From Proteobacteria bacterium UBA7415 (GTDB lineage Bacteria; Pseudomonadota; Gammaproteobacteria; Arenicellales; Arenicellaceae), in contig DKML01000031.1 in NCBI GenBank assembly GCA_002470515.1, positions 186,001-250,000 of the forward strand: a stretch of 64,000 nt of DNA. Direction: 5' to 3'. Below the pieces are notes generated by a model. The model ran no database searches. It was not told the DNA's origin and saw only the letters and a program-made list of their open reading frames with translations. The translations under genes were made by a program, and so were the position numbers. The first letter of the stretch is position 1. Each line of letters opens with the position of its first letter. This document shows, piece by piece, positions 18,592-51,350 of the stretch.

Positions 18592-18714
18592 GCTGAATTA
18601 TGTGGGTAATAGGTCTGGGTTGCTAAAATTAGCACTTAAAATTGAATAATACAGAAATTGGTATTTTTAAAAAAATCTTCAACTACGAACGAATTAGAAA
18701 TTCGTCCTATAAAT

Positions 18715-18744
18715 AAAAAAGGTGGGCAATTGCCCACCTTTTTT
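18715..18744 (-). terminator. Terminator of the TonB-dependent receptor gene (bidirectional)
   Basis: A perfect palindrome: GGTGGGC/GCCCACC stem with an AATT loop, flanked by six A and six T. It lies 49 bp past the receptor stop and would separate it from the downstream TPR-sulfotransferase gene on the same strand. Confidence 0.92.
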
Positions 18745-18792
18745 AAGCTCGTAATCAACTTACGAATATGAAATTAAAATTTCTCGAAATAT

Positions 18793-35503: not shown

Positions 35504-35914
35504 ATGAGCAACGTTGGCCCTACCAGAAAGCAGTTCGAAAAATTTAAGAACCTTCCCCGTGATACTCCAATCATGATGCTCAACTTGATCAAGTTAAATA
35601 AACGAGCTCGGTACGAAGACGGACGCAAAGCCACTGGGGAGGAAGCCTACGCCACCTATAATGAAGAAAGTTCTCCAATAGTAGCAAGCGTTGGTGGCAC
35701 TATTATTTGGCGCGGCAAACCTGAGTCAGTACTCATTGGTCCCCAAGACGAACGTTGGGACCTTGCATTTATTTCGCACTTTCCAAATTCTAAAGCTTTC
35801 TTGGATATGGTGACGGAACCTGCATATCAAGCAATCGCCTTCCACCGCCAAGCAGCTGTTAAAGACAGCCGTTTAATTCGCATGGGCGAAACTGAAGCTG
35901 GTATAAGTTTCTAG
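35504..35914 (+). CDS. DUF1330 family protein, copy 1
   Basis: 136 residues of the DUF1330 group (dimeric alpha+beta barrel fold), with PIMMLNLIKLNKRARY, GRKATGEEAY, WRGKPE and a conserved FHRQAAVKDSRLIRMGETEAG tail. No enzyme activity is established for the family. It is about 75 percent identical to the next gene (34 differences in 136 positions by hand alignment), so the pair arose by tandem duplication. Confidence 0.8.
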   Translation: MSNVGPTRKQFEKFKNLPRDTPIMMLNLIKLNKRARYEDGRKATGEEAYATYNEESSPIVASVGGTIIWRGKPESVLIGPQDERWDLAFISHFPNSKAFLDMVTEPAYQAIAFHRQAAVKDSRLIRMGETEAGISF

Positions 35915-36073: not shown

Positions 36074-36484
36074 ATGAGTAATATCGACCCGACTAGAGAA
36101 CAATTCGAAGCATTTAAAGATTTGCCTCGTGACACCCCAATCATGATGCTCAATCTAATTTCGCTACATGATAAAGCCCACTATGCGGATGGACGAAAAG
36201 CAACAGGCGCTGAAGCCTATGCCGCATATGGTCAAGAAAGCGGTTCGATCTTTGCCGATGTTGGTGGCTCCATTCTCTGGCGTGGCAAACCGGAATGCGT
36301 GTTAATTGGCCCTGCGACCGAACACTGGGATGTTGCGTTTATTGCACACTATCCAAACGCTAAAGCTTTTTTAGCTATGGTGACCAATCCTGACTATCAA
36401 GCGATAGTGTTTCATCGCCAAGCCGCCGTTAAAGACAGCCGATTAATTCGTATGGGCGAAACCGAAGCGGGCGTCAGTTTTTAA
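36074..36484 (+). CDS. DUF1330 family protein, copy 2
   Basis: 136 residues, the same length as copy 1 and colinear with it without gaps. An AAGGA ribosome-binding site precedes the ATG. The C-terminal 20 residues are almost unchanged between copies, while the segment at residues 50-65 differs most. It lies 159 bp after copy 1 and converges with caiD. Function unknown. Confidence 0.8.
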   Translation: MSNIDPTREQFEAFKDLPRDTPIMMLNLISLHDKAHYADGRKATGAEAYAAYGQESGSIFADVGGSILWRGKPECVLIGPATEHWDVAFIAHYPNAKAFLAMVTNPDYQAIVFHRQAAVKDSRLIRMGETEAGVSF

Positions 36485-36529: not shown

Positions 36530-37312
36530 CTAGCGACCCTTCCAGACTGGGTCGCGTTTTTCTGCAAAGGCTTTAAAACCTTCATGCATATCCTCGCTGG
36601 AATACAACTTGTCTACCGTTTCTAGCTGGCGTGTCGTCACACGGTTCAGCGCATCTTGGAAATTAGAGTCTTCGGCATCTCGAACCACTTCTTTGATTGC
36701 CGCCATCACAAGAGGTGGGCCTGCTGCAATATGATCAGCAAGCTCACGCGCCTTGGTTAACAACTCATCGGCAGGGTGAATTTGATTCACAAAACCCCAA
36801 CGATGCGCTTCTTGTGCATCTAACCAACGCCCCGTTAATAGCATTTCCATGGCGATATGATACGGAATTCGTTTTGGCAACTTGATAGATGCCGCATCAG
36901 CTACTGTACCCGATCGGATTTCGGGTAAGGCAAACGTCGCGTGTTCGGCCGCCAGAATAATATCTGTAGATAACGCTATCTCTAAACCGCCACCACAGCA
37001 GATACCGTTAATAGCACTGATTACAGGTTTATTTAGACGTGGCAATTCTTGCAAGCCACCAAATCCGCCAACGCCATAATCACCATCTACTTCGTCACCG
37101 TCTGCCGCCGCTTTTAGATCCCAACCCGGACAAAAGAACTTTTCTCCTGCGGCTGTCAATAAGGCAACTCGTAAATCAGGATCGTCGCGGAACGCCGCAA
37201 AGACTTCGCCTAACTCACGACTGGTTTTCAAATCGACTGCATTCGCTTTGGGTCGATCCAAAGTAACTTCGAGCACATTACCGCGACGTTCTGTTTTAAC
37301 TGATGTAGACAT
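36530..37312 (-). CDS. caiD: Crotonobetainyl-CoA hydratase-like enoyl-CoA hydratase
   Basis: 260 residues of the crotonase family. It matches E. coli CaiD in position-specific features: LDRPKANAVD, FFCPGWDLKAAA, catalytic Glu111 (GGGLE) and Glu131 (ALPE), and the C-terminal AFAEKRDPVWKGR. CaiD adds water to crotonobetainyl-CoA to give carnitinyl-CoA. It is the last gene of a five-gene minus-strand operon with cdhC, the carnitine dehydrogenase fusion, an acyl-CoA dehydrogenase and a CoA ligase. That layout fits CoA-dependent conversion of gamma-butyrobetaine to carnitine, as in the Sinorhizobium bco system. Confidence 0.9.
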   Translation of the reverse strand: MSTSVKTERRGNVLEVTLDRPKANAVDLKTSRELGEVFAAFRDDPDLRVALLTAAGEKFFCPGWDLKAAADGDEVDGDYGVGGFGGLQELPRLNKPVISAINGICCGGGLEIALSTDIILAAEHATFALPEIRSGTVADAASIKLPKRIPYHIAMEMLLTGRWLDAQEAHRWGFVNQIHPADELLTKARELADHIAAGPPLVMAAIKEVVRDAEDSNFQDALNRVTTRQLETVDKLYSSEDMHEGFKAFAEKRDPVWKGR

Positions 37313-37345
37313 TCGATATTCCTCTCAATTTCCTAATTAGATTGT

Positions 37346-39466
37346 TCAAACAAACTCAATAAGCGCATCAACCGCAAACACAGCGGTGGGGGTAACCATA
37401 AGCGGGTTAACGTCAAGACTTAGAAGGCCCTCTCCCTGATCAACCACATACGCATCAATGGCCATAATGGCAGCCACCACTAAATCCATATTCGCTGCAG
37501 GCCTGCCTCGGTAACCCTTGAGTAAAGGCGCAAGCTTTAGCTCAGATAATGCTTTGTACACTGCGTTAGCAGTCGTTGGTAATAATAGATGCGTTACATC
37601 TTTGATAAGTTCAGCATAAATTCCACCCGAGCCTAGCGTCAACAGCATCAACCCAGACGCGTCGCGACTGACGCCAACAATTAATTCGGCAATGGGTGAT
37701 TCAATTTGCTGCTCCAGCAGTATCTGAGTCTCCCGCCCTTGATTCAACTCTTGCTGCTGCAGGTCATGTGGACTAAGCGACGCTGCAACTTGCATTAAGT
37801 CCTCAAAGGCAAATTCTAGTTCTGCTTCTGTGCGTAAATTTAACCGTACGCCGCCAATCTCGGTTTTATGCGCGACACCTAAGACTTTGAGCACCCAACT
37901 ATGCTCTTTATTTTTCGTTACTTGCTGGAGTTCAGTCAATGTGGAGACAACGGCACTAAATGGGATCGCCAAACCATAAGACTTTAAGACTTTTTTTGCC
38001 GAAACTTCATCTAATAATTTCGAAGTGGCCGTCGAAACAGACGCAGACAACATGGGTATGACGGAATCAACGAACCCTTTTTGACCCGCTCGAATTGAAG
38101 CATCAATTGCAGCGATCGCCGTTTCCACACCATGCAAAGTAATCACGTCCGCACACCTGAATTTATCGATAACATCTGCTGATAGATTTTCTGGTAGCAG
38201 TCCAATAACCGCAATGGTAGGTCTGATGCCTCGCTCGGCTAACGCTACAGCGCAATTACAGATTGCCTCGATAGCACAGTCATGGCCAGATGGGTCGCAG
38301 CGATCAGCTCTGGGAATATCCAATACAAACACATGCAGGTCAAATGGCGCAGCCACAATTGCTGAAAAACAGTCCGTCATGGTTGGAACATCACCCCAAA
38401 TGTAGGTGTGATAGTCAAGCGGGTTTGCTACCGTTACTCTCAGGCCAAGAATCTTACGTAGCACACTTGTGGTTGCCGGTGAAAAGTCAGGATACTGTAG
38501 CTCACTGCCCTCGGCTAAATCCGACATCAAACCGGCTTCTCCTCCCGAACAGCTCACAGACGCAATCGCAGACCCAGTCAATGGACCCAAGTGATCCAAG
38601 AGCTTTAATGTTTCTAGAAACACACTAATCGTGCTGACTTCAACAATACCCAGGCGAACTAGCAATGCACTTGACGCAGCAGCTCCTCCAGCCATTGATG
38701 CCGTATGGGTAAAAGTTGCCACTTGCGCTTTCTGAGTTTTACCCACCTTTAACACAACAATACTCTTACCCGCCTCGCGGGCTCTGAGCGCCGAATGACA
38801 AAAACGTTCTATATCCCCAAAACCCTCAAGGTATAAACCAATGGCACTTACTCTTGGGTCTGCGACTAGGGCATCAACTAAATCACAGACCTGCGTTTGT
38901 GCCTGATTACCTAGGGTAACTAGGTAGGCTAAATTGAGCCCTCGCTGTTGCATCGTCATGTTAATGGCTACGTTGCTGGACTGCGCCACTATCGCCACCC
39001 CGCCATCAACGGTAACACCGCCATGCTGATCTGGCCAAACGACGGCATTATCGACGTAATTGATAAAGCCATAACAGTTCGGGCCGAGTATCGGCATATC
39101 CCCCGCAGCAGTCACTAACTGCGTTTGAAGTAATTCGCCATCGTCGAGATCACTCTCTCGAAAACCCGAGGCAAAGCAAACCGCTCCGCCAGCACCTGCG
39201 TTGGCAAGTTCACGCACAACAGCAACGCTGGCGCTCCGATTAAGCCCTATAAAACTAGCATCTGGAGCAAACGGAAGTTGCTGTATCGTCTTTACGCACG
39301 CGATACCAGCGAGCGTGTCTCTGTGGGGATGTACCGCGAATATCTGGCCGCTGTAATTGCTCTTAGTTAACTGTTTAGCGACGTTTTCCGCCCAGTCACT
39401 GCCAAACAGGCAGATTGAACGCGGACTCAGTAAGCGTTGTAGCTTAGAGTGCATGCGCTTCAGCAT
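37346..39466 (-). CDS. ADP-forming acyl-CoA synthetase (acetate-CoA ligase family), fused alpha and beta domains
   Basis: 706 residues. A CoA-binding Rossmann domain (about 10-140) and a ligase domain are followed from about 470 by an ATP-grasp domain (KVLGVAHKTEIGGVRLNL, LLTLGSGGIYAELIKDV). His254 in THTASMAGG matches the phospho-histidine of ADP-forming acetyl-CoA synthetases, so it should be catalytic and not a lysine acetyltransferase. By position between acyl-CoA dehydrogenase and caiD it probably loads CoA on gamma-butyrobetaine or carnitine, replacing CaiC. The ATG at 39466 is chosen over a TTG. Confidence 0.85.
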   Translation of the reverse strand: MLKRMHSKLQRLLSPRSICLFGSDWAENVAKQLTKSNYSGQIFAVHPHRDTLAGIACVKTIQQLPFAPDASFIGLNRSASVAVVRELANAGAGGAVCFASGFRESDLDDGELLQTQLVTAAGDMPILGPNCYGFINYVDNAVVWPDQHGGVTVDGGVAIVAQSSNVAINMTMQQRGLNLAYLVTLGNQAQTQVCDLVDALVADPRVSAIGLYLEGFGDIERFCHSALRAREAGKSIVVLKVGKTQKAQVATFTHTASMAGGAAASSALLVRLGIVEVSTISVFLETLKLLDHLGPLTGSAIASVSCSGGEAGLMSDLAEGSELQYPDFSPATTSVLRKILGLRVTVANPLDYHTYIWGDVPTMTDCFSAIVAAPFDLHVFVLDIPRADRCDPSGHDCAIEAICNCAVALAERGIRPTIAVIGLLPENLSADVIDKFRCADVITLHGVETAIAAIDASIRAGQKGFVDSVIPMLSASVSTATSKLLDEVSAKKVLKSYGLAIPFSAVVSTLTELQQVTKNKEHSWVLKVLGVAHKTEIGGVRLNLRTEAELEFAFEDLMQVAASLSPHDLQQQELNQGRETQILLEQQIESPIAELIVGVSRDASGLMLLTLGSGGIYAELIKDVTHLLLPTTANAVYKALSELKLAPLLKGYRGRPAANMDLVVAAIMAIDAYVVDQGEGLLSLDVNPLMVTPTAVFAVDALIEFV

Positions 39467-39486
39467 CAATCAGTAGATCTGCCAAC

Positions 39487-40650
39487 TTAGGCCCCATACG
39501 GCCGCAGTAAGCTACGAGAAATAATGTGTCTCTGGATCTCAGAGGTTCCTTCCCATATTCGTTCAATGCGGGCGTCTCGCCATATTCGCTCAAGCGGTAA
39601 CTCTGACATCAAGCCCATACCACCAAAAATCTGAATGGCTTCGTCTGCGACCATTGCTAACATCTCGGTAGCCTTTAACTTAGCCATCGCCATATCGGCA
39701 TCAGTGCAACGACCCGAGTCGTAATCACTGCCTGCTGACCACACTAATAGCTCGGCCGCTTTTAACTCGGTAGCCATGTCCGCCAACTTAAATGAGACAC
39801 CTTGGAATTTACCAATCTTCTGGCCGAATTGTTCGCGCTCAGCGGCATACTCAACCGCCAATTTAAAGGCTCGATCAGCCCGCCCTAAGCAAGTCGCTGC
39901 CACTTGCAAACGGGTAGCACCTAACCAATCGTTAGCGACTTCGAAGCCCTTGTGTAGCTCACCCAACATGGCCTCTTTAGGGACGCGGCAATCATTAAAC
40001 GATAATGTTGCGTTGGTGTAGCCACGATGAGACACATTGTCATAGCCCGCTGTAATGTCTAGCCCTGGATTGTCGTGGTCGACAAAAAAAGCCGAGATCA
40101 GTTTCTTTTTACCTCTAGGAGTATCTTGTTCGCCTGTCGCCATAAAAGCGATGGTAAAGTCGGCTTCCGCTGCATGGCTAATAAAGTGCTTTGTGCCATT
40201 CAAAATCCAGTCGTCGCCGTCAGCAACCGCCGTTGCTTTCATGCCGCGCAGATCGGAACCTGCACCGGGTTCGGTCATGGCCAAACAATCCGACTTTTCT
40301 CCGCGCACGCAAGGCTCAAGGTATTTCTGGCGTTGCTCTGGTGTTCCAGCACACAGAATATTGGAAGGCCGAGCAACGCAGTTCCAATGCAGTGCATAGT
40401 TGGCACGCCCGAGTTCTTTCTCGTACAACAACCAAGTGAGCGTATCCAATCCGCCACCGCCAAACTCCTCTGGAATATTGGCTGCATACAGCCCTGCCGC
40501 TAAGGCTTTGGCTTTCACTTCGTCTGCAACTTCTTTACGCAATATACCGGTTTTCTCTATTTCCTGTTCGAGCGGATAAAGTTCTTTTTCTACAAATGCT
40601 CTGGTCGTATCCACGATCATTTGCTGTTCTTCGTTTAGCTGAAAATTCAT
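39487..40650 (-). CDS. Acyl-CoA dehydrogenase, probably gamma-butyrobetainyl-CoA dehydrogenase
   Basis: 387 residues of the FAD acyl-CoA dehydrogenase family with the signatures AMTEPGAGSDL (near 137) and RIWEGTSEIQRH, whose Glu367 is the catalytic base. The best-supported role comes from context. It lies 17-21 bp before the CoA ligase gene and in one operon with caiD and carnitine dehydrogenase, so it should oxidise gamma-butyrobetainyl-CoA to crotonobetainyl-CoA. It is not closely like E. coli CaiA. A different short-chain substrate cannot be excluded. Confidence 0.85.
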   Translation of the reverse strand: MNFQLNEEQQMIVDTTRAFVEKELYPLEQEIEKTGILRKEVADEVKAKALAAGLYAANIPEEFGGGGLDTLTWLLYEKELGRANYALHWNCVARPSNILCAGTPEQRQKYLEPCVRGEKSDCLAMTEPGAGSDLRGMKATAVADGDDWILNGTKHFISHAAEADFTIAFMATGEQDTPRGKKKLISAFFVDHDNPGLDITAGYDNVSHRGYTNATLSFNDCRVPKEAMLGELHKGFEVANDWLGATRLQVAATCLGRADRAFKLAVEYAAEREQFGQKIGKFQGVSFKLADMATELKAAELLVWSAGSDYDSGRCTDADMAMAKLKATEMLAMVADEAIQIFGGMGLMSELPLERIWRDARIERIWEGTSEIQRHIISRSLLRPYGA

Positions 40651-40708
40651 AGTTGCTTCAAGTTCCCGTACGTCCTGCAGACCTTAATGTGTTTAGTGAT
40701 AGATAGAG

Positions 40709-42115
40709 CTAACCTAGCGCTTTCTGCTGCTCGGCTACGGCCACCAGCTTTTCCGCTAGGTCAGCGCGTGGCGGACAAGACTTTCGTTGGTTTAAATCAA
40801 CGTGCAACATAAATTGTTCGCCGCTGCACAATAGGCGGCCGTCAGCGTGATTCATCTCATGATAGAGCTGTACTTTCTTGCCTTCGCATAACAGCACTTT
40901 AGTATTGACTGATACTCGGTCACCTGCATGGCACTCCTCGATATAGCGAATGTGTGTATCCACTGTAAAGAAACTAAAGCCAGCTTTTATGTATTCAGCA
41001 TCGGCGCCAACCAGCTGCATAAAGGCATCTGCGGCATCTGAAAATACTTGCCCGTAACGCGCTTCGTTCATGTGGCCGTTATAGTCTGTCCAATCAGCAG
41101 GAATAGTCCGATTAACAGTTGCGATCATTTTGCTAAAATCCGGTTCAGGTCGATTACCAAACAACTTTTGGTCAAAGTCATTAAGTAGCTCACCCGCGCC
41201 CCAATTTTGGGTTTTAAGGCCACGCATCATCGCCACTAAGTTGTCGTCACGAATGCGTTCTAACTCGCGAATACTATGGTGACCTGATTGCGCATCCGAC
41301 TGATCTGCGATCATGGTCACTAGCTCATCAGTCAATTCTGGGACGTCCATCAATTTGGTCCACGGCCACTCCAGGGCCGGACCGAACTGACCTATAAAAT
41401 GCGCCATTCCTGCTTCGCCACCCGCCACTCGATACGTTTCGAATAGACCCATTTGGGCCCAGCGCAGACCAAAGCCGTAGCGGATCGCGTCGTCAATTTC
41501 TTGGGTTGTCGCTATCCCATCCTTGATCAACCACAAGCCTTCTCGCCACACCGCTTCTAAGAAGCGATCTGCAATATGCGCGTCTATTTCCTTTCGCACT
41601 AGTAGCGGAAACATACCCAAGCCATCCAAAATGGCTTTTGCATTTAGACAGGTTGCGTTGTCACCGACTAACTCAACCAGTGGAATTAGGTAAACAGGAT
41701 TAAAGGGGTGAGCAACAATGATTTGTTCTGGCCTAGTTGCTCCGTCATTTAACTCGCTCGGTTTAAAACCAGAAGTAGATGAACTGATAACGGTGGTGTC
41801 CAAACAATTGGCTTGCACTTCAGTTAATACAGTCTGCTTAAGATCTAGGCGCTCAGGCACACACTCTGAAACCCATGCAACATTGTTGACCGCCTCGGCG
41901 AGTGTTTTACAAAATTGTATTTCCCCTTCCTCTGGTAAGGCTTGCTCGTACAAGGCTGGCAAAGAATGGCGAGCGTTGGTCAATACCGCTTCGACTTTAC
42001 GTGCGGCTTCTGGGTCTGGGTCATAGACATTTACATTCCAGCCCATGAGTGCAAAACGCGCAACCCAACCACCGCCAATGACACCGCCACCCAATACTGC
42101 TGCTGTCTGCTTCAT
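40709..42115 (-). CDS. cdhAB: L-carnitine 3-dehydrogenase fused to betainyl-CoA thioesterase
   Basis: 468 residues with two activities. Residues 1-320 are a 3-hydroxyacyl-CoA-dehydrogenase-like NAD enzyme (AVLGGGVIGGGWVARFA, IIVAHPFNPVYLIPLVELVG) that oxidises carnitine to 3-dehydrocarnitine. Residues 335-460 are a hotdog thioesterase (DWTDYNGHMNEARY, FTVDTHIRYIEEC) that frees betaine from betainyl-CoA. In Pseudomonas these are separate CdhA and CdhB; a fused form is known in Sinorhizobium. It starts 16 bp after cdhC. Confidence 0.93.
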   Translation of the reverse strand: MKQTAAVLGGGVIGGGWVARFALMGWNVNVYDPDPEAARKVEAVLTNARHSLPALYEQALPEEGEIQFCKTLAEAVNNVAWVSECVPERLDLKQTVLTEVQANCLDTTVISSSTSGFKPSELNDGATRPEQIIVAHPFNPVYLIPLVELVGDNATCLNAKAILDGLGMFPLLVRKEIDAHIADRFLEAVWREGLWLIKDGIATTQEIDDAIRYGFGLRWAQMGLFETYRVAGGEAGMAHFIGQFGPALEWPWTKLMDVPELTDELVTMIADQSDAQSGHHSIRELERIRDDNLVAMMRGLKTQNWGAGELLNDFDQKLFGNRPEPDFSKMIATVNRTIPADWTDYNGHMNEARYGQVFSDAADAFMQLVGADAEYIKAGFSFFTVDTHIRYIEECHAGDRVSVNTKVLLCEGKKVQLYHEMNHADGRLLCSGEQFMLHVDLNQRKSCPPRADLAEKLVAVAEQQKALG

Positions 42116-42131
42116 AGTATTAACCCTGAGC

Positions 42132-43040
42132 TTACGCTGGATTTCGTTTAGTCAAACCCAACTTTTCTCGCACCTGTTGTGGCGTGAGTAGAGTCGAGCC
42201 CATTGCTTCGATGATGACGCGTGCGCGTGCTACAAGATCTTCATTCTTTGCAAGCACGCCTTTCTCTAACCATAGGTTGTCTTCCAAACCCACTCGCACA
42301 TTGCCACCGGCAAGAACCGCTGCGGCAACGAATGGCATTTGATGCTGCCCGATCGAAAAGGCCGACCAGTTCCAATCTTGTGGGATATTATTAACCATAG
42401 CCATAAACGTATTCATATCGTTAGGCGCGCCCCATGGGATGCCCATGCACAATTGCACCAAAGCCGGTGAATCGATTACTCCGCGCTCAGCCAAATCTTT
42501 GGCATACCAGAGGTGGCCTGTATCAAAGGCTTCGATCTCGGGTTTCACTCCAAGTTCAGTCATCATGCCGCCCATAGCATCCAACATGCCGGGCGTATTT
42601 GTCATCACATAATCAGCTTCGGCAAAGTTCATTGTTCCGCAATCCAAAGTGCATATCTCGGGCAAACACATTGCCACATGCTCCATACGCTCCTCGGCGC
42701 CAACCATGTCAGTACCCTCTATAAAGGGTAGGGGTTTCGACGGAGGTCCAAACACCAAGTCACCACCCATGCCTGCGGTTAGGTTTAGTACAACATCCGT
42801 TGCCGAGTCACGCACTCTCTCGGTGAGCTCTAGATACAACTTAGGGTCGCGCGAAGGTACGCCTGTTTCTGGATCACGCACATGGCAATGCACTACCGCC
42901 GCTCCTGCTTTAGCGGCCGCAATTGCGCTATTAGCAATCTGCTCTGGGGAACGAGGTACATGCGGACTGCGGTCTTGGCTACTGCCAGACCCTGTTACGG
43001 CACAGGTGATGAATACTTCTTTGTTGGCGTTTAAAGGCAT
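42132..43040 (-). CDS. cdhC: 3-dehydrocarnitine:acetyl-CoA C-acetyltransferase (BKACE family)
   Basis: 302 residues of the beta-keto acid cleavage enzyme family, with the zinc-binding HCHVRDPETG (His51, His53) and VVLNLTAGMGGD. It converts 3-dehydrocarnitine and acetyl-CoA to betainyl-CoA and acetoacetate. The ATG at 43040 has GGAG 8 nt upstream and is preferred to one 21 bp earlier. It is the first gene of the carnitine operon and divergent from the CdhR-like regulator; a TGGCA-N19-TGCCA element at 43078-43106 lies between them. Confidence 0.92.
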   Translation of the reverse strand: MPLNANKEVFITCAVTGSGSSQDRSPHVPRSPEQIANSAIAAAKAGAAVVHCHVRDPETGVPSRDPKLYLELTERVRDSATDVVLNLTAGMGGDLVFGPPSKPLPFIEGTDMVGAEERMEHVAMCLPEICTLDCGTMNFAEADYVMTNTPGMLDAMGGMMTELGVKPEIEAFDTGHLWYAKDLAERGVIDSPALVQLCMGIPWGAPNDMNTFMAMVNNIPQDWNWSAFSIGQHQMPFVAAAVLAGGNVRVGLEDNLWLEKGVLAKNEDLVARARVIIEAMGSTLLTPQQVREKLGLTKRNPA

Positions 43041-43135
43041 TACGCTGACTCCATTGATCATTTAATGACTCATATATTGGCAGAATCATCAAAAGCACAA
43101 TTGCCATAAATCGTATAAAAATATACATTATTCGT

Positions 43136-44095
43136 ATGCGCATAAATCAACTTCAATTGGTCACGATTGTGGTCTTACCGCAAAGCTCAATGATGAGCTT
43201 AGCCGCCGTAATTGACCCATTACGTGCGGCCAATCGACTGGCAAGACAGCCCATGTTCGAATGGCGTATTAAGTCGTTTAATGGAGAACCAATCCGCTTA
43301 ACCAGTGGTATTGATATTGCCGTTAGTGGAGAGCTGTCTAAACAAGACTCAGGTGACGCACTGATTGTCGTTGCAGGTTTCGAGCATGATCAATGGGCTG
43401 GCAAGAAACACATGATGACCCTAAGAGAAGCCGCACGGCGCCACAACTTAAACATGGGAGTCGAAGCAGGAACATGGCTACTCGCCAAATCCGGCACAAT
43501 TAGTGATCACCGAGTAACCACCCACTGGGAAGACCTAGAACTCTTAGCATCCAGCTACTCGGGTTTAAACGTGCGGCACGATCGCTACACCATTGATCGA
43601 AACATCTGGACCTGTGGAGGTGCTTCCCCCGCACTGGATATGATGTTGCAATATATTCGAACTTCTACCCACCGGTCACTTGCTTTAGAAGTAGCCAACG
43701 TATTTGTCTATGACGACTCTCACCCTGCAAGCGACACACAAGCGATGAGCGCGACTAGCAGGCTAAAGCATCTTGAGTCTCGTGTGGCGCAAGCCGTTAA
43801 ATTTATGGAAGAAAACTTGGATGACCCCGTTAGTATTCGCTCCCTTAATTCGACGATTGGCGTCTCTTCTAAAACCCTAGAACAACTGTTCAAGTTGCAC
43901 TTAGACTCAACACCCAAGGCGTTCTATTTACGACTGCGCTTACAAGCGGCTCGCCGATTGGTATTAGACAGCCAACTAAAACTCACTGAAATTGCAGTAC
44001 GCAGCGGGTTCAATAGCCAAACACACTTCACACGTAGCTTTAAACGGCATTTTGGAGTCGCTCCAAGAATACTCCGCAGTAACGCGAGGGCGTGA
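43136..44095 (+). CDS. cdhR: GlxA/AraC-family regulator, CdhR-like
   Basis: 319 residues with an N-terminal DJ-1/PfpI-like domain (1-180) and a C-terminal AraC DNA-binding domain (about 215-315: VSIRSLNSTIGVSSKTLEQLFKLHL, then SGFNSQTHFTRSFKRHFG). The elbow cysteine of the amidase fold is replaced by Glu110 in GVEAGTW, so only ligand binding is expected. Pseudomonas CdhR is the carnitine-responsive activator of cdhCAB; the divergent location from cdhC supports the same role here. Confidence 0.82.
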   Translation: MRINQLQLVTIVVLPQSSMMSLAAVIDPLRAANRLARQPMFEWRIKSFNGEPIRLTSGIDIAVSGELSKQDSGDALIVVAGFEHDQWAGKKHMMTLREAARRHNLNMGVEAGTWLLAKSGTISDHRVTTHWEDLELLASSYSGLNVRHDRYTIDRNIWTCGGASPALDMMLQYIRTSTHRSLALEVANVFVYDDSHPASDTQAMSATSRLKHLESRVAQAVKFMEENLDDPVSIRSLNSTIGVSSKTLEQLFKLHLDSTPKAFYLRLRLQAARRLVLDSQLKLTEIAVRSGFNSQTHFTRSFKRHFGVAPRILRSNARA

Positions 44096-44167
44096 CGCTA
44101 GGCGCAAAAGTGATATGCTTTTGGAGTAGGTTAAATATTAACTTCTTGCCGACTATCAATAGCCAAT

Positions 44168-45271
44168 ATGAACATCCAATCTGTTGACCAACACGCACAC
44201 TCATTCATGCTTTCTTGGGAAGACGGCACTCAGCAGGAACTTCCGTTTGTATGGTTGCGAGACAATGACCCTAGCGAATTACACCCAGACACCAAAGAAA
44301 GAACATTTGATCTAGCTTCTGTTCCTCTTGATATACAGCCACGTAGTTATTCTATTGAAGCTAATGCACTCAAGATGCGCTGGCCTGAGCGGAACAACGA
44401 TTCGATCTACACCAGTGAATGGTTAAATGAGCATCGCTTAGGTAGACCTGCCGAAGACCCTGCCAAACTAGAACAACAGAGTTGGTTCCCTAGTGACATG
44501 CAAACCATGTATCGTTTTGACGCCAAAGACAGCGAAAACAAAAAAGGGCTCCTGAAGGTCTTAACTGCGATGAAACGTTATGGTCTAGTCCTTATTGATA
44601 ATCTCCAGGATGACCCGCAGGCTGGAGAACGTTTTGGAGATCTAATCGGGTTTAAGCGCGAGAGTAATTTTGGCGTCATATTTGACGTAATCAGCAAGCC
44701 TGATCCAAACAATCTAGCCTATACATCTATCGCCTTACCTCTCCATACCGATTTACCCAATCAAGAGTTGGTGCCCGGTTTTCAGTTCTTGCATTGTTAT
44801 AAGAACAACACAATAGGTGGAGCATCAGTTTTGGCGGATGGTCTAGCTATTGTTGAGGAATTTAAACGAGATTTTCCTGAACACTTTGCTCTGCTTAGCG
44901 AACTTGATGTGCCGTTTCGGTTTCATGACGAAACCTGCGATATCCGGCGCAAACGACCCATTATCGATATTGATGCCGATGGCAACCTTCGAAATTTTAC
45001 GTTCAATGGCCATATCGCCGACGTTGCGTGCCTGCCTGCAGACAAAATTTATGACTTTTATGCCGCCTACCATACGCTGATGAAACGCATTCGTAGCGAC
45101 GACTACTCGATTCGTTACACGCTGCAGCCTGGCGAAATGGTGATCTTTGATAACCGACGTGTTATGCACGGACGCGACAGCTTTGACCCTACAGCGGGCG
45201 ACCGACACCTACGTGGCTACTATATTGACCACAACGAAGTAGACAGTCGGCTTAGAGTTTTAGCTAGATAA
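44168..45271 (+). CDS. bbox: Gamma-butyrobetaine dioxygenase
   Basis: 367 residues of the TauD/BBOX family, which hydroxylates gamma-butyrobetaine to L-carnitine with Fe(II), 2-oxoglutarate and oxygen. Iron ligands are His193 and Asp195 (HTDLPNQE) and His334 (NRRVMHGRDS), with Arg346/Arg349 nearby for 2-oxoglutarate. PGFQFLHCYKNNTIGGAS and the EVDSRLRVL end match BBOX strongly. The N-terminal DUF971-like domain lacks the zinc-binding cysteines and histidine known from human BBOX1 (the loop reads RDNDPSELHP). It lies 72 bp after cdhR on the same strand. Confidence 0.9.
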   Translation: MNIQSVDQHAHSFMLSWEDGTQQELPFVWLRDNDPSELHPDTKERTFDLASVPLDIQPRSYSIEANALKMRWPERNNDSIYTSEWLNEHRLGRPAEDPAKLEQQSWFPSDMQTMYRFDAKDSENKKGLLKVLTAMKRYGLVLIDNLQDDPQAGERFGDLIGFKRESNFGVIFDVISKPDPNNLAYTSIALPLHTDLPNQELVPGFQFLHCYKNNTIGGASVLADGLAIVEEFKRDFPEHFALLSELDVPFRFHDETCDIRRKRPIIDIDADGNLRNFTFNGHIADVACLPADKIYDFYAAYHTLMKRIRSDDYSIRYTLQPGEMVIFDNRRVMHGRDSFDPTAGDRHLRGYYIDHNEVDSRLRVLAR

Positions 45272-45280
45272 CCTCGCGCC

Positions 45281-45303
45281 GACTCCTTCAACTGAGCGGA
45301 GTC
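45281..45303 (+). terminator. Weak hairpin after the butyrobetaine dioxygenase gene
   Basis: GACTCC (45281-45286) pairs with GGAGTC (45298-45303) and is followed by a pyrimidine-rich TCTCTTCCC. It may only partly stop transcription before the BCCT gene. Confidence 0.4.
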
Positions 45304-45393
45304 TCTCTTCCCAAAAAGGCGGCCAAACCATGATTTCCTAATTCCTGTTAATATGTTGGCTTAATTGCATTCTAATACCAACCAAGGAACAGT

Positions 45394-47001
45394 ATGGATT
45401 TTAAAGACGCCAGTCGCTTAATAGACAAAACCACCTTTTTCTCGTCGCTCTTTCTACTCTTAGGCGTGACCATACCTTTGCTTATCCGGCCAGAAGCAGG
45501 CGGCGTCATCGTTAACCAAATCCGCCGTTTTCTTACTGACGTTTTAGGAACTTGGTATCTTGCGCTTGGTCTTGGCGCATTCATCTTCATGGTTTACATA
45601 GTCTTTAGTGACTTTGGCAAAATTAAGCTGGGCGAGCCTGACGAGAAACCTGAGTTTGGCGACTTCGCTTGGATCTCAATGTTATTTTGCGCCGGAATTG
45701 GCGCGAGCATTGTGTATTGGGGCCCTATCGAATGGGCTTTCTATTATCAGTCACCGCCCTTTATGATCGAACCAGAGTCGGTCGAAGCTATGCGTTGGGC
45801 TTCCACTTACGGCATGTACCATTGGGGGCCCGTCGCTTGGTCAATTTACTTAATTCCTGCTGTGCCGATTGCGTACTTTTATCACGTTAGAAAGAAACAT
45901 GTATTAAAGCTGTCGCGCGCGGTAGCACCTGTTATTGGAACTACTGCCGCTCGCGGATGGCCTGGCAAGATTATTGATGTGCTGTTTATCTTTGGCATGT
46001 TGGGTGGCGGCGCGACCTCATTGGGTCTTGCAGCACCTTTAATTAATGAAGGTCTGTTCCGCCTGTTTGAAGTGCCTAGGGGCATCTGGCCGCAGATCTT
46101 AATTCTATTAGTCTGCACAGCAATCTTTGGAGCCAGCGCATACTCCGGCTTAAAGAAAGGGATTCAACGCTTATCCACTCTCAATGTCGCCATTGCGTTA
46201 GGCTTACTGGTTTATGTATTCCTTGTAGGCCCCACCACCTTCATTACCGAAAGCTCTTTTGAAGCCGTCGGCCGCTTGGCATCAAACTTCATTCAAATGT
46301 CCACATGGCTCGAGCCGTTTGGAGGCATGAACGGTTACGAAGATACAAGCTTCCCCGCTGACTGGACTATTTTTTACTGGGCTTGGTGGCTTGCATTCGC
46401 GCCAACGGTTGGTATTTTCATCGCTCGAATATCTAAGGGCCGTACCATAGCTAATATGGTTGGCGGCTCGTTAGTTTGGGGCTCATTAGGTTGCGCATTG
46501 TTCTTTATGATCTTAGGCAACTTTGGTAGCTTTTTACAATTGTCTGGCCAGCTAGATGTGATATCCATACTCAACAACGATTCTGCAGAAGCCGCTATTT
46601 TCTCCATCCTAAATGAACTGCCATTTGGCTGGATAGTGACGGCTGTATTTACGTTTCTTGCACTGATTTTCTTGGCGACCACGTTTGACTCTATTTCCTA
46701 CATTCTGGCATCTGCTGTTCAAACCCACGTTGATGACGAACCAATGCGCTGGAACCGTTTATTCTGGGCGGCTATGCTCAGCCTAATGCCGGTATCGCTG
46801 ATGTTCTTAGGCGGGTTAAACACGGTACAAACAGCAAGTATCGTTGGAGGCGCACCTCTGTTGATCATCGCAGTGCTGCTGTGCTGGTCTATATTAATTG
46901 TGGCGCGACGAGACCTACACAAACACTCGACATTTGAACCAAGCCAGATCAACATTGACGTCCCTAAAGAAAATATCGATCCCTGGAACAAAGAGGATTA
47001 A
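45394..47001 (+). CDS. BCCT-family betaine/carnitine transporter
   Basis: 535 residues with about 12 membrane segments. Family signatures are the GIGASIVYWGPIEWAFYYQ region of TM3, TYGMYHWGP, the aromatic substrate segment FYWAWWLAFAPTVGIFIARISKGR, and TTFDSISYILAS. These are the quaternary-amine transporters (CaiT, BetP, DddT). Location after the dioxygenase and opposite the carnitine operon supports carnitine or gamma-butyrobetaine as substrate. Whether it is sodium-coupled or an exchanger cannot be settled by eye. The short C-terminus lacks a BetP-like osmosensing tail. Confidence 0.9.
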   Translation: MDFKDASRLIDKTTFFSSLFLLLGVTIPLLIRPEAGGVIVNQIRRFLTDVLGTWYLALGLGAFIFMVYIVFSDFGKIKLGEPDEKPEFGDFAWISMLFCAGIGASIVYWGPIEWAFYYQSPPFMIEPESVEAMRWASTYGMYHWGPVAWSIYLIPAVPIAYFYHVRKKHVLKLSRAVAPVIGTTAARGWPGKIIDVLFIFGMLGGGATSLGLAAPLINEGLFRLFEVPRGIWPQILILLVCTAIFGASAYSGLKKGIQRLSTLNVAIALGLLVYVFLVGPTTFITESSFEAVGRLASNFIQMSTWLEPFGGMNGYEDTSFPADWTIFYWAWWLAFAPTVGIFIARISKGRTIANMVGGSLVWGSLGCALFFMILGNFGSFLQLSGQLDVISILNNDSAEAAIFSILNELPFGWIVTAVFTFLALIFLATTFDSISYILASAVQTHVDDEPMRWNRLFWAAMLSLMPVSLMFLGGLNTVQTASIVGGAPLLIIAVLLCWSILIVARRDLHKHSTFEPSQINIDVPKENIDPWNKED

Positions 47002-47013
47002 CGTTAATCCTCT
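46992..47013. terminator. 22-bp perfect palindrome containing both convergent stop codons
   Basis: The symmetric sequence is centred between 47002 and 47003. It includes the TAA of the BCCT gene (46999-47001) and the TAA of the MarR gene (47006-47004). Both proteins therefore end in Glu-Asp. A short T-run follows at 47019-47022. It probably acts as a shared hairpin terminator. Confidence 0.6.
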
Positions 47014-47510
47014 AGCTCTTTTGATTCAATCGACCCAGATACTTTTTTGATCAATCGATGAAAAGTGTTCCGCTCGCTGTTAGACAGACAAGCGAAAAGT
47101 TCTTGCTCGTACGCTTTCGATAGCGGTACCACTTGGCGGTATATGTCCTGCCCTGTTCGTGATAAACGTAAGCAATGCTTGCGTGCGTCCTGCGCGTCGG
47201 TTTCTCGACGCACTAGGTTTCGAGCGAGCAAGCGTTTAATTGCTCGACTGATCAGAGATTTTTCTACTTGAGTTCGCTGCGAGACAGTGTCGGCTGATAC
47301 GCCTGCCACATCGGGTGACCCGACACCCATGGTTTCACCCAATACAGCCATTATCCGCCACTCTGTTACCGTGAGAGCGAACTTGTCTTGATAGGCTGTC
47401 GCAATAGTAGAACTAACGCGGTTGGATAATATGGATAGCTGGTAGGGTAAAAAGTCTTCCAGCGACAGAATATTATCGATGTGATTTGCTGTTTTTTTCG
47501 GCTCGCGCAT
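47004..47510 (-). CDS. MarR-family regulator of tyrosine catabolism (inferred)
   Basis: 168 residues with a MarR winged helix (TEWRIMAVLGE, then KSLISRAIKRLLARNLVRRETDAQDARKHCLRLSRTGQDIY). An inserted GVGSPDVAGVSADTVSQ segment extends the usual helix 2-3 region. It is divergent from hpd with 104 bp between the ATGs. That gap holds two inverted repeats, so it should repress or control hpd and fahA. The ligand, possibly homogentisate or an upstream keto acid, is unknown. Confidence 0.88.
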   Translation of the reverse strand: MREPKKTANHIDNILSLEDFLPYQLSILSNRVSSTIATAYQDKFALTVTEWRIMAVLGETMGVGSPDVAGVSADTVSQRTQVEKSLISRAIKRLLARNLVRRETDAQDARKHCLRLSRTGQDIYRQVVPLSKAYEQELFACLSNSERNTFHRLIKKVSGSIESKELED

Positions 47511-47519
47511 GATTGCAAT

Positions 47520-47556
47520 TAGTTGCTATTACAACTATTATTGTTGCAGATGCAAC
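47520..47556. promoter_or_regulatory. Two inverted repeats, candidate MarR operator of hpd
   Basis: TAGTTG-N6-CAACTA (47520-47537) and GTTGCA-GA-TGCAAC (47543-47556) share the GTTG/CAAC half-site. They lie just upstream of the MarR start and about 60-95 bp before hpd. Size and symmetry suit a MarR dimer. Confidence 0.65.
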
Positions 47557-47614
47557 TAGTTTACTCGCTAAGACCCCGCTCTGGCGAGCGTTTGACCAAA
47601 TTAATGGAGATAAT

Positions 47615-48694
47615 ATGACTGATTTATTTGAGAACCCGATGGGTTTGTGCGGTTTTGAATTTGTAGAATTTGCTGCTAAGGAACCTGGCATTCTTGAGCC
47701 TGTGTTTGAGATGGCGGGCTTTACGCACGTTGCATCGCATCGCACTAAGCAAGTTGAACTTTATCGCCAAGGGCAGATCAACTTAATCATCAATTACGAG
47801 CCCAACAGCTACGCCTATTACTTTGCCGAAGAGCACGGCCCTTCTGCATGTGGTTTGGCATTTAGAGTTAAAGACTCACGCGCAGCCTATAAGCGAGCGC
47901 TTTCGTTAGGTGCACAACCCATTGACATTCCGGTGGGCCCTATGGAACTCCGCTTACCTGCTATTAAAGGTATCGGTGGCGCACCTCTTTACTTGATTGA
48001 CCGTTATGAAGACGGATCATCAATCTATGACATCGACTTTATCTTCAAAGAAGGCGCAGACTATCGTCCAGAAGGTTGTGGGTTTGAGCTGATCGATCAC
48101 CTTACGCATAACGTCTACCGTGGACGCATGGACTACTGGGCTGACTTTTACGAGACCCTGTTCAACTTTCGCGAAATTCGTTACTTTGATATTAAAGGCG
48201 AGTACACCGGCCTCAAGTCAAAAGCACTCACTGCGCCAGATGGCAAGATTCGGATCCCATTGAACGAAGAAGCCTCAAAAGAAACAGGCCAGATCGAAGA
48301 ATTCTTAATGAAGTACAACGGCGAAGGCATTCAACACATTGCTTTTTCGTGTGACGATTTACTGGGCTGCTACGATCGCTTGAAAGCGCGCGGCATGAAA
48401 TTTATGAGTGCACCGCCAGAAACCTACTATCGCATGCTAGATGATCGCCTCCCTGGTCATGGCGAGCCTATTGAAGAACTGCAAACGCGTGGTATTTTAT
48501 TAGACGGTACTACCGAAAACGATGATCCTCGCCTGTTGCTACAGATCTTTTCTGATACCTTAATCGGCCCAGTGTTCTTTGAATTTATTCAACGTAAAGC
48601 TGATGATGGTTTTGGCGAAGGTAACTTCAAAGCACTGTTTGAATCTATCGAGCGCGACCAAGTTGAACGTGGTGTTATCTCTGGCAAGAAATAG
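47615..48694 (+). CDS. hpd: 4-hydroxyphenylpyruvate dioxygenase
   Basis: 359 residues, the usual bacterial length, made of two VOC halves. Iron ligands are His162 (IDHLTHNV), His241 (IQHIAFSC) and Glu323 (FFEFIQRK), one residue off the Pseudomonas numbering. It turns 4-hydroxyphenylpyruvate into homogentisate. The ATG at 47615 with GGAGA just before it is chosen; the reading frame extends 34 codons upstream only through the operator region. It is the first gene of the tyrosine cluster. Confidence 0.96.
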
Positions 48695-48753
48695 CCTTAG
48701 AATAATCACGCAAACCTAAGTACCACAATCCAAAGACTAATATAGGAAAGGCC

Positions 48754-50070
48754 ATGAGCTACTCTTTAAATTCTACTCACGACCCAAAAGCTCGCTCTTG
48801 GGTGACTAGCGCTAACGAAGAAACGAGTGAGTTTCCGATTCAGAACCTACCGTTTGGCGTATTCCAAACTAAAGGTAAGAGCGATGGCTTTAGAATTGGA
48901 GTAGCTATTGGTGACTCTATTGTGGATATGCCTAAAGCGCTAGCGAGTGGAGCACTCGAAGGATTAAGCAATGACGCAAAACTTGCCTTAGGCGCATCAA
49001 GCCTAAATGCGTTCATGGCGCTAGGCAAGCAAAACTGGAGCCAGGTACGCGCTTCGTTGTTTGCGGCTCTGAGCGAAGATTCAGGTGCCCAGAACGTTCT
49101 TAGCGATTGCTTGGTAACACTTAGCGACGCTGAGTATGCCGTGCCCGCTCAAATCGGCGACTACACTGATTTCTATACGTCGATCCATCACGCAACCAAT
49201 GTCGGCAAGCTGTTTAGACCCGACAACCCGTTGCTGCCTAACTATCAGTGGATCCCAATTGGTTACCACGGCCGAAGCTCATCTATTGAAGTTTCTGGTC
49301 ACAGTTTTCACAGACCAAAAGGACAATTAAAGCCACCAACAGCCGACACGCCAACTCTTGAGCCATGCAAACGTCTGGATTATGAGCTCGAGGTCGGTAT
49401 TTATATTGGCACAGGTAATGAACTCGGGTCGGCCATCGAATTAGACAATGCAGAAGATCACGTATTTGGGCTATGTCTTTTTAACGATTGGTCGGCGCGG
49501 GACATTCAAGCGTGGGAATACCAGCCATTAGGTCCGTTTTTATCTAAGAGCTTTGCGTCTACCGTGTCGCCTTGGATTGTAAGCATGGAAGCACTTGCAC
49601 CGTTCCGCCAAGCTTGGCAGCGAGATGTAGCCGATCCACAGCCACTGGCTTATTTAGACTCTGACTCTATGCGCGAATCTGGCGCCGTGGATATGAAGCT
49701 TGAAATCCTGATTCAAACGACTGCAATGCGCGAACAAGGTGTTGCGGCTGAAAGTGTAGCCAAGAGCAACTTCAATCATTCTTACTGGAACATTGCACAA
49801 ATGGTCGCTCATCACAGCGTTAACGGCTGCAATTTACGTCCTGGTGACTTATTTGGTAGCGGAACATTGTCTGGCCCTTCGGCTGACAGTGTTGGTGCAT
49901 TACTTGAAGCGACTCAGGGCGGCAAGAACCCAATTACTCTAAGCAATGGCGAACAACGTACATTCTTAGAAGACGGCGACACCGTGGTTCTGCGAGGTTA
50001 TTGCGATAACTCAAACGCACGTCGAATTGGTTTTGGCGAAGCACTCGCAAGCATCTTACCTGCGATTTAG
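48754..50070 (+). CDS. fahA: Fumarylacetoacetase
   Basis: 438 residues, full length. An N-terminal SH3-like part (25-130) is followed by the hydrolase core with metal and active-site segments DYTDFYTSIHHATNVG, YELEVGIYIGTGN, LFNDWSARDIQAWEYQPLGPF and GDLFGSGTLSGP. It cleaves fumarylacetoacetate to fumarate and acetoacetate, the last step of tyrosine catabolism. It follows hpd by 59 bp, where many genomes have hmgA. Confidence 0.96.
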   Translation: MSYSLNSTHDPKARSWVTSANEETSEFPIQNLPFGVFQTKGKSDGFRIGVAIGDSIVDMPKALASGALEGLSNDAKLALGASSLNAFMALGKQNWSQVRASLFAALSEDSGAQNVLSDCLVTLSDAEYAVPAQIGDYTDFYTSIHHATNVGKLFRPDNPLLPNYQWIPIGYHGRSSSIEVSGHSFHRPKGQLKPPTADTPTLEPCKRLDYELEVGIYIGTGNELGSAIELDNAEDHVFGLCLFNDWSARDIQAWEYQPLGPFLSKSFASTVSPWIVSMEALAPFRQAWQRDVADPQPLAYLDSDSMRESGAVDMKLEILIQTTAMREQGVAAESVAKSNFNHSYWNIAQMVAHHSVNGCNLRPGDLFGSGTLSGPSADSVGALLEATQGGKNPITLSNGEQRTFLEDGDTVVLRGYCDNSNARRIGFGEALASILPAI

Positions 50071-50111
50071 AACAGTCATTTAGAAGAGTCAGTTAAAACA
50101 AGAGGCCTTAT

Positions 50112-50660
50112 ATGAAAGTTGAACACATCCACCACGTTGCGTACCGTTGCAAAGACGCTAAAGAGACCGTTGAATGGTATGTAAAAAATCTAAACATGGA
50201 TTTCGTACTGGCTATTGCTGAAGACGAGGTGCCCTCGACCAAACAGCCTGATCCCTACATGCACGTATTTTTGGATGCCGGGCAAGAAAACGTATTAGCG
50301 TTCTTCGAATTGCCTACGCAACCGGAAATGGGTCGAGACCCAAACACACCAGAATGGGTGCAACATATTGCCTTTAAAGTAAAAGACCGCGAAACGCTCT
50401 TAGCCTTCAGAGAACAACTTGAAGGAAACGGAGTCGACGTGCTCGGCGTTACGGACCATAGTTTGTTCCACTCAATCTATTTCTTTGATCCAAACGGTCA
50501 CCGTGTTGAATTAGCCTGTCCCGATGCAGAAGAAGAAGCCAAGCTAAAACGGTTGGACGCGGTTAAATGGGAAATGCTGGAAGAATGGTCAAGGACCAAA
50601 AAAGCGCCACGGCACGCCGATTGGATGCACGCCAAAGAATTTGGCAAAGAAGGCGCGTAA
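50112..50660 (+). CDS. VOC family protein in the tyrosine cluster
   Basis: 182 residues. A two-module VOC fold is visible: IHHVAYRCKDAKETVEWYVKNL at the start, VQHIAFKVKDRETLLAFREQL in the middle and FFDPNGHRVELACP with a metal-ligand-type Glu. Potential ligands are His8, a central His and the late Glu. A basic C-terminal helix follows. It sits 41 bp after fahA and 45 bp before maiA, so it is part of the operon. Its reaction is unknown; a glyoxalase-like, isomerase or ring-cleavage role are options. Confidence 0.8.
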   Translation: MKVEHIHHVAYRCKDAKETVEWYVKNLNMDFVLAIAEDEVPSTKQPDPYMHVFLDAGQENVLAFFELPTQPEMGRDPNTPEWVQHIAFKVKDRETLLAFREQLEGNGVDVLGVTDHSLFHSIYFFDPNGHRVELACPDAEEEAKLKRLDAVKWEMLEEWSRTKKAPRHADWMHAKEFGKEGA

Positions 50661-50705
50661 ACACTCATGCTGTGAGCACTAACAAGATCTAAGGAGAAAG
50701 GCCGC

Positions 50706-51350
50706 GTGAAACTATTTACTTATTTTAGAAGCACTGCAGCCTATCGAGTGCGAATAGCCCTTAACCTTAAGGGCTTACCTGCAGAGCTGCTGCCGGTTAA
50801 TCTTGTTGAGAAAAAGCACACAGAAGCGGCCTACACGGATCTTAATCCACAAGGATTAGTGCCAGCGTTAATGCTTGAGAGTGGCGAGGTAATGAATCAG
50901 TCGATGTCCATTCTCGAATACCTTGACGAACAATACCCCCTCCCACCACTACTGCCCACTGGCCCGCTAGAGCGCGCCGAAGTGCGTAGTTTTGCCTATG
51001 AGATTGCCTGCGACATGCACCCTCTTAATAACTTGCGTGTACTCAAATATTTAGAAAATGATTTAGGGGTTGGTGCCCAAGACAAGCAAACATGGTACGA
51101 ACATTGGATAGCGACAGGCTTTACCGCATTGGAGCAACGCCTAGAATTACGCAAGCCTCCACAACAAGGATCATTTTGTTTTGGGAATACAGCGACAATT
51201 GCCGACTGCCTTCTAATACCTCAGGTCTACAACGCATTGCGTTTTAACTGTGACATGCAGCCCTACCCGCTCATTAATGCCATTAACGAGCACTGTTTGA
51301 GCCTTAATGCCTTCGAGGCGGCTCGACCCGAAAACCAAGCCGATGCATAA
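50706..51350 (+). CDS. maiA: Maleylacetoacetate isomerase (zeta-class glutathione transferase)
   Basis: 214 residues with a GTG start preceded by AAGGAGAAAG. The GST fold is typical of the zeta class: YFRSTAAYRVRIALNLKG with the active serines at the start, NPQGLVPAL, and QSMSILEYLDE for glutathione binding. It converts maleylacetoacetate to fumarylacetoacetate using glutathione. It is the last gene of hpd-fahA-VOC-maiA. Confidence 0.94.
   Translation: MKLFTYFRSTAAYRVRIALNLKGLPAELLPVNLVEKKHTEAAYTDLNPQGLVPALMLESGEVMNQSMSILEYLDEQYPLPPLLPTGPLERAEVRSFAYEIACDMHPLNNLRVLKYLENDLGVGAQDKQTWYEHWIATGFTALEQRLELRKPPQQGSFCFGNTATIADCLLIPQVYNALRFNCDMQPYPLINAINEHCLSLNAFEAARPENQADA

Follow-up and report, generated by a model that had tools for sequence, protein, structure and literature searches.

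Proteobacteria bacterium UBA7415 is a member of the Arenicellaceae within the class Gammaproteobacteria. Here we describe a locus for carnitine and gamma-butyrobetaine metabolism in a stretch of 64,000 nucleotides from its contig DKML01000031.1, referred to below as the window. The locus comprises a minus-strand operon with the genes of a route dependent on coenzyme A (CoA), a divergent regulator, and a plus-strand pair that consists of a dioxygenase resembling gamma-butyrobetaine dioxygenase (BBOX) and a BCCT transporter. Its genes are the following (aa, amino acids):

42132-43061, minus strand: CdhC, beta-keto acid cleavage enzyme (BKACE), 309 aa (PF05853, 4.2e-100; 68% identical to the Rhizobium operon protein)
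40709-42115, minus strand: fused carnitine 3-dehydrogenase and thioesterase (CdhA-CdhB), 468 aa (NF005716, 722 bits; 3HCDH_N, 3HCDH, 4HBT_2)
39487-40650, minus strand: short-chain-type acyl-CoA dehydrogenase, proposed gamma-butyrobetainyl-CoA dehydrogenase, 387 aa (PF02771, PF02770, PF00441; 61% identical to the Rhizobium operon protein)
37346-39469, minus strand: ADP-forming-type acyl-CoA ligase, proposed gamma-butyrobetaine-CoA ligase, 707 aa (PF13380, PF13607, PF13549; 44.8% identical to the Rhizobium operon ligase)
36530-37312, minus strand: CaiD-like, putative crotonobetainyl-CoA hydratase, 260 aa (PF00378; NF002936, 323 bits; 73% identical to the Rhizobium carnitinyl-CoA dehydratase)
43136-44095, plus strand: GbdR/CdhR-like AraC-type regulator that carries a DJ-1/PfpI domain and is divergent from cdhC (HTH_18, DJ-1_PfpI)
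44168-45271, plus strand: BBOX-like Fe(II)/2-oxoglutarate dioxygenase, 367 aa, from a clade that lacks the N-terminal zinc site (TauD, GBBH-like_N; residues and tree)
45394-47001, plus strand: BCCT transporter, 535 aa (PF02028, 4.6e-154)

The BBOX-type dioxygenase, BCCT transporter, acyl-CoA dehydrogenase, CoA ligase, CaiD, cdhAB and cdhC named in an earlier, sequence-only reading of this DNA are all long open frames in the orientation it gave. Its cdhAB was refined to a single fused open reading frame on the minus strand, which joins 3HCDH to a 4HBT_2 thioesterase domain. Transcription of the minus strand runs from cdhC through the cdhAB fusion, the acyl-CoA dehydrogenase and the CoA ligase to the CaiD-like hydratase. 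The fusion protein passes the curated equivalog cut-off for carnitine 3-dehydrogenase (NF005716, 722.3 against 592 bits). The hydratase scores below the CaiD cut-off (best NCBIfam model NF002936, 323 against 500 bits) and the dioxygenase is below those of its models, so the names of both rest on the nearest model and on context. The AraC-type regulator is below the GbdR cut-off (222 against 480 bits); a relative of it lies divergent from cdhC in 5/5 genus relatives for which the cdhC stretch was retrieved.

The CoA-dependent operon

The CoA-dependent arm postulated by the sequence-only reading was borne out: the expected gene set is present, and it represents a known operon type. Conservation was assessed in the best 80 of at least 589 confirmed cdhAB candidates, taken from species genomes with a stretch of at most 10 kb on either side. 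The ligase occurs in 33 of these 80 loci, and acyl-CoA dehydrogenase, ligase and hydratase occur together in 31. Counts across the order (cdhAB in 77/109 genomes, ligase in 74/109) take in distant homologues too and should not be read as operon counts.

The identical five-gene set is found in a single run on a Rhizobium leguminosarum plasmid (L122), where it is annotated as 3-keto-5-aminohexanoate cleavage protein, carnitine 3-dehydrogenase, acyl-CoA dehydrogenase, acetate-CoA ligase and carnitinyl-CoA dehydratase. Identity to the window proteins is 68% for cdhC, 48% for cdhAB, 61% for the dehydrogenase, 44.8% for the ligase, which is of the ATP-grasp type in both, and 73% for the hydratase. 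As in the window, a regulator is divergent, here of the GlxA family; unlike in the window, an ABC transporter comes next in the run, and the 20 kb shown have no annotated dioxygenase or BCCT gene.

A pathway of this type for L-carnitine and gamma-butyrobetaine was reportedly described in Sinorhizobium meliloti by Bazire in 2019. The S. meliloti-type gene set (ligase, acyl-CoA dehydrogenase, hydratase, carnitine dehydrogenase-thioesterase and BKACE) is complete in the window; the sequence comparison was made with the Rhizobium operon. The dual role of dehydrogenase and thioesterase is credited to Bazire 2019 in the available part of PMC12482172, and strain HK4, close to Rhizobium meliloti, is described in the available part of PMC2131755 as making carnitine from gamma-butyrobetaine along a route like that of fatty acid breakdown.

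It is thus well supported that the minus-strand set is a conserved operon of an already known kind, predicted to encode a complete catabolic pathway for gamma-butyrobetaine and carnitine. We infer the reactions as follows. The ligase would convert gamma-butyrobetaine into gamma-butyrobetainyl-CoA, which the acyl-CoA dehydrogenase would oxidize to crotonobetainyl-CoA and the CaiD-like enzyme would hydrate to carnitinyl-CoA. Carnitine would be freed from the latter by the thioesterase domain and oxidized to 3-dehydrocarnitine by carnitine dehydrogenase; after cleavage of this product by CdhC, the thioesterase would then release glycine betaine.

The ligase belongs to the ATP-grasp, ADP-forming class (PF13607, PF13549, PF13380) and not to the AMP-forming CaiC type. 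Its best solved-structure match spanning nearly the whole protein is DddX, an ATP-dependent dimethylsulfoniopropionate (DMSP) lyase (7cm9, 2.5e-52, residues 18-704), to which it is 25.8% identical. Residue roles and membership criteria of DddX (His292, Trp391, Glu432 and more than 30% identity) were taken from the available part of PMC8163506. The phosphorylated His292 is kept in 13/13 aligned ligases, including that of the L122 operon. The onium-binding Trp391 is matched in 13/13 with a gap of four residues, and an ungapped HMMER alignment of the relative P0124 pairs a His with it instead. Tyr181, Asp208 and Phe435 are found in 0/13 ligases and Glu432 in 3/13, the window ligase having Asp at the last position. 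A DMSP lyase reading of the ligase was rejected on its identity to DddX, the replacement of Glu432 and the surrounding carnitine genes. The protein may be a distant DddX relative that could bind an onium group and lacks the lyase base. The Trp shared by the 13 gamma-butyrobetaine-type ligases and DddX, which depends on the alignment, would suggest a common onium-binding ancestor.

The dioxygenase and its association with carnitine genes

Residue counts and the tree of the dioxygenase were based on 36 of the 120 listed homologues, one of which duplicated a locus protein exactly and was dropped. The final alignment had 81 rows, of which 45 are window-type (35 database and 10 locus proteins), and 57 rows entered the tree. 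The iron triad and the 2-oxoglutarate arginine are kept in the window enzyme (H, D, H and R at human BBOX positions 202, 204, 347 and 360). The aromatic cage consists of F, F, Y and Y at human 177, 181, 194 and 366, with a spacing of 4-13-10-157. These residues and their spacing match the cage of Pseudomonas AK1 BBOX, which was compared through its published positions (F184, F188, Y201, D211 and Y368, in the available parts of PMC4736438 and PMC6927413), F184 and F188 being taken from the spacing to pair with human 177 and 181. Asn is present at human N191 and N292 in 45/45 window-type rows. The cage favours a trimethylammonium substrate, and together with the two Asn positions, the family and the iron triad it makes up the likeness of the window enzyme to BBOX.

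Within the genus, a window-type dioxygenase (at least 53% identity) was found in 9/18 genomes. cdhAB is present in 6/9 of these carriers and in 0/9 non-carriers (Fisher two-sided 0.009, uncorrected for kinship), a test that treats genomes as independent, some of them being incomplete; for the ligase alone the corresponding figures are 4/9 and 0/9 (Fisher 0.08). Dioxygenase and cdhAB share a contig in three of the six genomes with both (G000, G378 and G382), in arrangements that differ among the three. Two further genomes (G369 and G375) are too fragmented to judge linkage, and in G377 the two are on separate contigs, the dioxygenase being flanked on each side by 35 kb of contig or more. G377 (87% complete) has cdhAB, and neither the ligase nor a second type of BBOX-like protein, encoded beside cdh genes (cdh-linked hereafter), was found in it; the window-type enzyme may therefore be its entry to carnitine. 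The pairs P0061/P0124 and P0109/P0128 have longest contigs of equal size (39,125 and 18,092, respectively), which hints at further, unconfirmed linkage.

Patchy linkage of this kind, with the split in G377, would be expected if the transporter-dioxygenase pair stood beside cdhC by chance and had no metabolic link to it. The window pair being a diverged lineage (see below) fits such a view too, as does the survey of the 80 cdhAB loci, in none of which a window-type dioxygenase was found within the at most 10 kb on either side. Chance neighbourhood nevertheless appears improbable to us, since linkage recurs in differing arrangements and a more distant BBOX-like gene accompanies the same CoA and cdh genes on a Thioclava plasmid.

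This plasmid, p2 of Thioclava sp. GXIMD2076 (L225 with L224), carries a TauD-type dioxygenase (34.8% identity), two class II aldolase genes and an ABC transporter, together with acyl-CoA dehydrogenase, ligase, carnitinyl-CoA dehydratase, BKACE and carnitine 3-dehydrogenase. The aldolase genes could possibly belong to a longer pathway upstream of gamma-butyrobetaine. G362 (L118:6476-11705) combines an ADP-forming ligase and a CaiD-like hydratase with an adjacent AraC-type gene and TmpA-like dioxygenase, the last at 395 of 400 bits; no cdhAB or cdhC match was found within 18 kb. An Arctic SAR11 island with carnitine dehydrogenase, BKACE, choline dehydrogenase and two BBOX genes is described in the available part of PMC12421898; compared by this description, it differs from the window in its ABC transport and in that no CoA ligase, acyl-CoA dehydrogenase or CaiD is named there. 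An oxygenase near carnitine genes is a recurring theme, and the oxygenase clades differ. We found no published description of oxygenase and CoA arms paired in one locus, which is weak evidence of novelty, as most subscription papers fell outside the search.

Substrate of the dioxygenase and history of the pair

The reading that we favour, and to which we give an even chance, is a complete CoA operon beside a separately inherited BCCT-dioxygenase cassette that would hydroxylate a trimethylammonium acid, likeliest gamma-butyrobetaine. The BCCT transporter would import the acid and the BBOX-like enzyme would hydroxylate it with O2 and 2-oxoglutarate; gamma-butyrobetaine, the likeliest single substrate, would be turned into free carnitine without ATP or CoA. 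The sequence-only reading had placed two routes from gamma-butyrobetaine to carnitine at this locus. Its CoA arm stands, as do the family of the dioxygenase, its iron triad and its trimethylammonium cage, gamma-butyrobetaine being a candidate substrate of this enzyme. Two such routes side by side are plausible, with the balance about even.

Several observations weigh against gamma-butyrobetaine. The dioxygenase is below the cut-off of the BBOX model (TIGR02409, 287.7 against 414.75 bits) and scores no better with it than with the model of the 2-trimethylaminoethylphosphonate hydroxylase TmpA (NF049936, 288.3 against 400 bits), also below cut-off. The exact Pseudomonas-type cage is found in 22/45 window-type rows, most others having Tyr at 177, like human BBOX and TmpA; among the genus relatives it occurs in 2/8 and Tyr at 177 in 6/8. 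Since it is seen in 41/81 rows overall, in several clades, the cage does not fix gamma-butyrobetaine as the substrate. Cys or His was found at the ligand positions of the N-terminal zinc site in 0/45 window-type rows. The zinc ligands of human BBOX are C38, C40, C43 and H82. Among the carriers of the dioxygenase, G143 (99% complete), G370 (92%) and G371 (81%) have no cdhAB at E 1e-30 and no cdhC at E 1e-20. In G382, finally, the dioxygenase block adjoins cdhC-cdhAB, which is directly followed by another BBOX-like gene (60% identical to that of L006), in the place that the CoA genes occupy in other genomes. If this cdh-linked gene makes carnitine, the window-type enzyme may do something else.

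Three zinc-bearing Pseudomonas-type relatives that were scanned also miss the TIGR02409 cut-off (301.5-363.1 bits), and the solved-structure matches to human BBOX (2.4e-48) and TmpA (3.9e-48) are nearly equal. The 21 window-type rows of the tree make up a single clade (support 100/99), separate from the zinc-bearing Pseudomonas-type proteins (7 rows), the group of the cdh-linked BBOX-like proteins (9) and that of the second homologue encoded in the genome (7); human BBOX and TmpA are on long branches and their placement is unsure. BBOX thus differs from the window enzyme in its CxCxxC...H zinc site, in its separate, well-supported clade and in Tyr205, which is Leu in 45/45 window-type rows. 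TmpA resembles it in the model score of 288 and in missing zinc cysteines, and differs from it by Asn at human position 205. A TmpA reading fits the equal scores and may hold, although the two do not group in the tree.

A second BBOX-superfamily protein is encoded elsewhere in the same genome (L002:1420-2592, contig C18). Its clade keeps the zinc site and has His and Ser at two cage positions, and its substrate may differ.

These points lead to an alternative that we hold to be somewhat short of an even chance, namely that the dioxygenase acts on another trimethylammonium compound, with the CoA operon as the sole gamma-butyrobetaine route and both arms in a betaine island ending at glycine betaine. 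The separate clade without the zinc site speaks for it, as do the three carriers without detectable cdhAB and cdhC and the closeness of the dioxygenase to a cdh-linked BBOX-like gene in G382. So does R. leguminosarum BIHB 1148, in which the CoA operon and a 42% dioxygenase relative are on different plasmids; no carnitine gene is annotated around the Rhizobium relatives of this identity. The neighbourhood of the dioxygenase in the genus points the same way. In the stretches retrieved for eight relatives, several of them on short contigs, an aspartyl-hydroxylase-like gene is near the dioxygenase in 8/8, a BCCT gene adjoins it in 6/8 and a betA relative is present in 6/8; betB occurs in L107 and L154, gbdR in L107 and a choline-sulfatase-like gene in L149. 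On the other side stand the cage and both Asn positions, which are as in BBOX, and the finding that cdhAB within the genus occurs in carriers only.

In the order, 5/109 genomes have a match to the cdh-linked BBOX-like protein with E of 1e-70 or lower, and four of these (G403, G406, G407 and G423; 37-50% identity) also have a ligase match, on another contig; two such enzymes in one genome are therefore no oddity. A mutual exclusion of the CoA genes and the cdh-linked BBOX-like gene was considered, as they occur in 33 and 3 of the 80 loci and in none together within the stretch. However, 37/80 loci have neither despite at least 5 kb downstream (the other seven have neither and less than 5 kb), and the three BBOX-like loci are too few for proof; the four order genomes in which ligase and BBOX-like protein coexist speak against strict exclusion.

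The gene order in G143 bears on the history of the pair. There, a TonB receptor, a TPR-sulfotransferase, a small sulfotransferase, the aspartyl-hydroxylase-like gene and a BCCT gene precede the dioxygenase, which is followed by betA, EamA, betB, a 165-aa protein, a further BCCT gene and, further on, gbdR. Five of these genes, arranged and oriented relative to one another as in G143, are present at 13748-21576 of the window: gbdR, the 165-aa protein, the aspartyl-hydroxylase-like gene, the TPR-sulfotransferase and the TonB receptor. No BCCT, dioxygenase, betA or betB gene was found between them. One gene of this block is listed for its position:

15588-16565, plus strand: aspartyl/asparaginyl-hydroxylase-like protein (58% identical to the G143 protein; synteny), near the dioxygenase in relatives and 28 kb from it here

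The dioxygenase-BCCT pair of the window lies 28 kb from the G143-type block (165-aa protein to TonB receptor, 15067-21576) and beside the cdh operon, and the nearest betA homologue of the genome (54%) is located beyond the window. On average (5 to 9 genomes per gene), the identity between the window protein and its genus relatives, compared with that among the relatives, is 55.0 against 65.1 for the dioxygenase and 63.3 against 70.9 for BCCT; the corresponding values are 59.0 and 60.5 for the aspartyl-hydroxylase-like protein, 82.4 and 84.1 for cdhC, 67.2 and 68.3 for cdhAB, and 50.1 and 53.7 for araC. The window dioxygenase clusters in the tree with P0002-P0005 (62-72% identical), away from the eight genus copies. 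From the lower identity and the separate place in the tree it follows that dioxygenase and BCCT were replaced or moved together, or diverged together; the pair is a diverged lineage with a history separate from that of the operon.

One scenario, which we regard as less likely than not, would combine these elements: in the betA-linked blocks of the genus, the zinc-less BBOX-like clade would serve some betaine different from gamma-butyrobetaine, and a diverged copy with its BCCT gene would have been taken into the carnitine locus of the window. A single island would then degrade two related betaines, its oxygenase and CoA arms meeting at carnitine or glycine betaine.

Should gamma-butyrobetaine be the substrate of both arms, this one bacterium would possess adjacent entries to carnitine that differ in their chemistry. 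The CoA entry costs ATP and CoA and yields reduced flavin, and the dioxygenase entry costs O2 and 2-oxoglutarate, which would make the locus a clean system for asking when each is used. If another substrate is the true one, the label 'gamma-butyrobetaine dioxygenase', borne by several database proteins 53-56% identical to the window enzyme, would misname an entire clade of enzymes that break down betaines. A switch between the arms by oxygen or 2-oxoglutarate supply, as the sequence-only reading had suggested, drew no support from the DNA: promoter-like sites (13, shuffled mean 14.2) and terminator-like sites (12, shuffled mean 11.6) are at the shuffled mean, and Rfam gave no match at the gathering threshold. 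The acyl-CoA dehydrogenase of an aerobe also feeds into respiration.

Neighbouring genes

Part of a glycine-betaine catabolic set lies at 6914-14722. Its soxB exceeds the model cut-off (735 against 529 bits), and soxG (118 against 144) and the GbdR-like regulator (436 against 480) are below theirs; judged from translations alone, the frames at 7509-10517 and 12280-13662 are sarcosine oxidase alpha-like and serine ammonia-lyase-like. Just past the end of the minus-strand operon are two tandem genes (35504-35914 and 36074-36484) for clearly similar 136-aa proteins, the second of which, the sole one scanned, has a DUF1330 domain. Following the BCCT gene, at 47004-51350, a MarR-type regulator precedes homogentisate-pathway-like genes, which from their translations alone appear hydroxyphenylpyruvate dioxygenase-like, fumarylacetoacetase-like and maleylacetoacetate isomerase-like.

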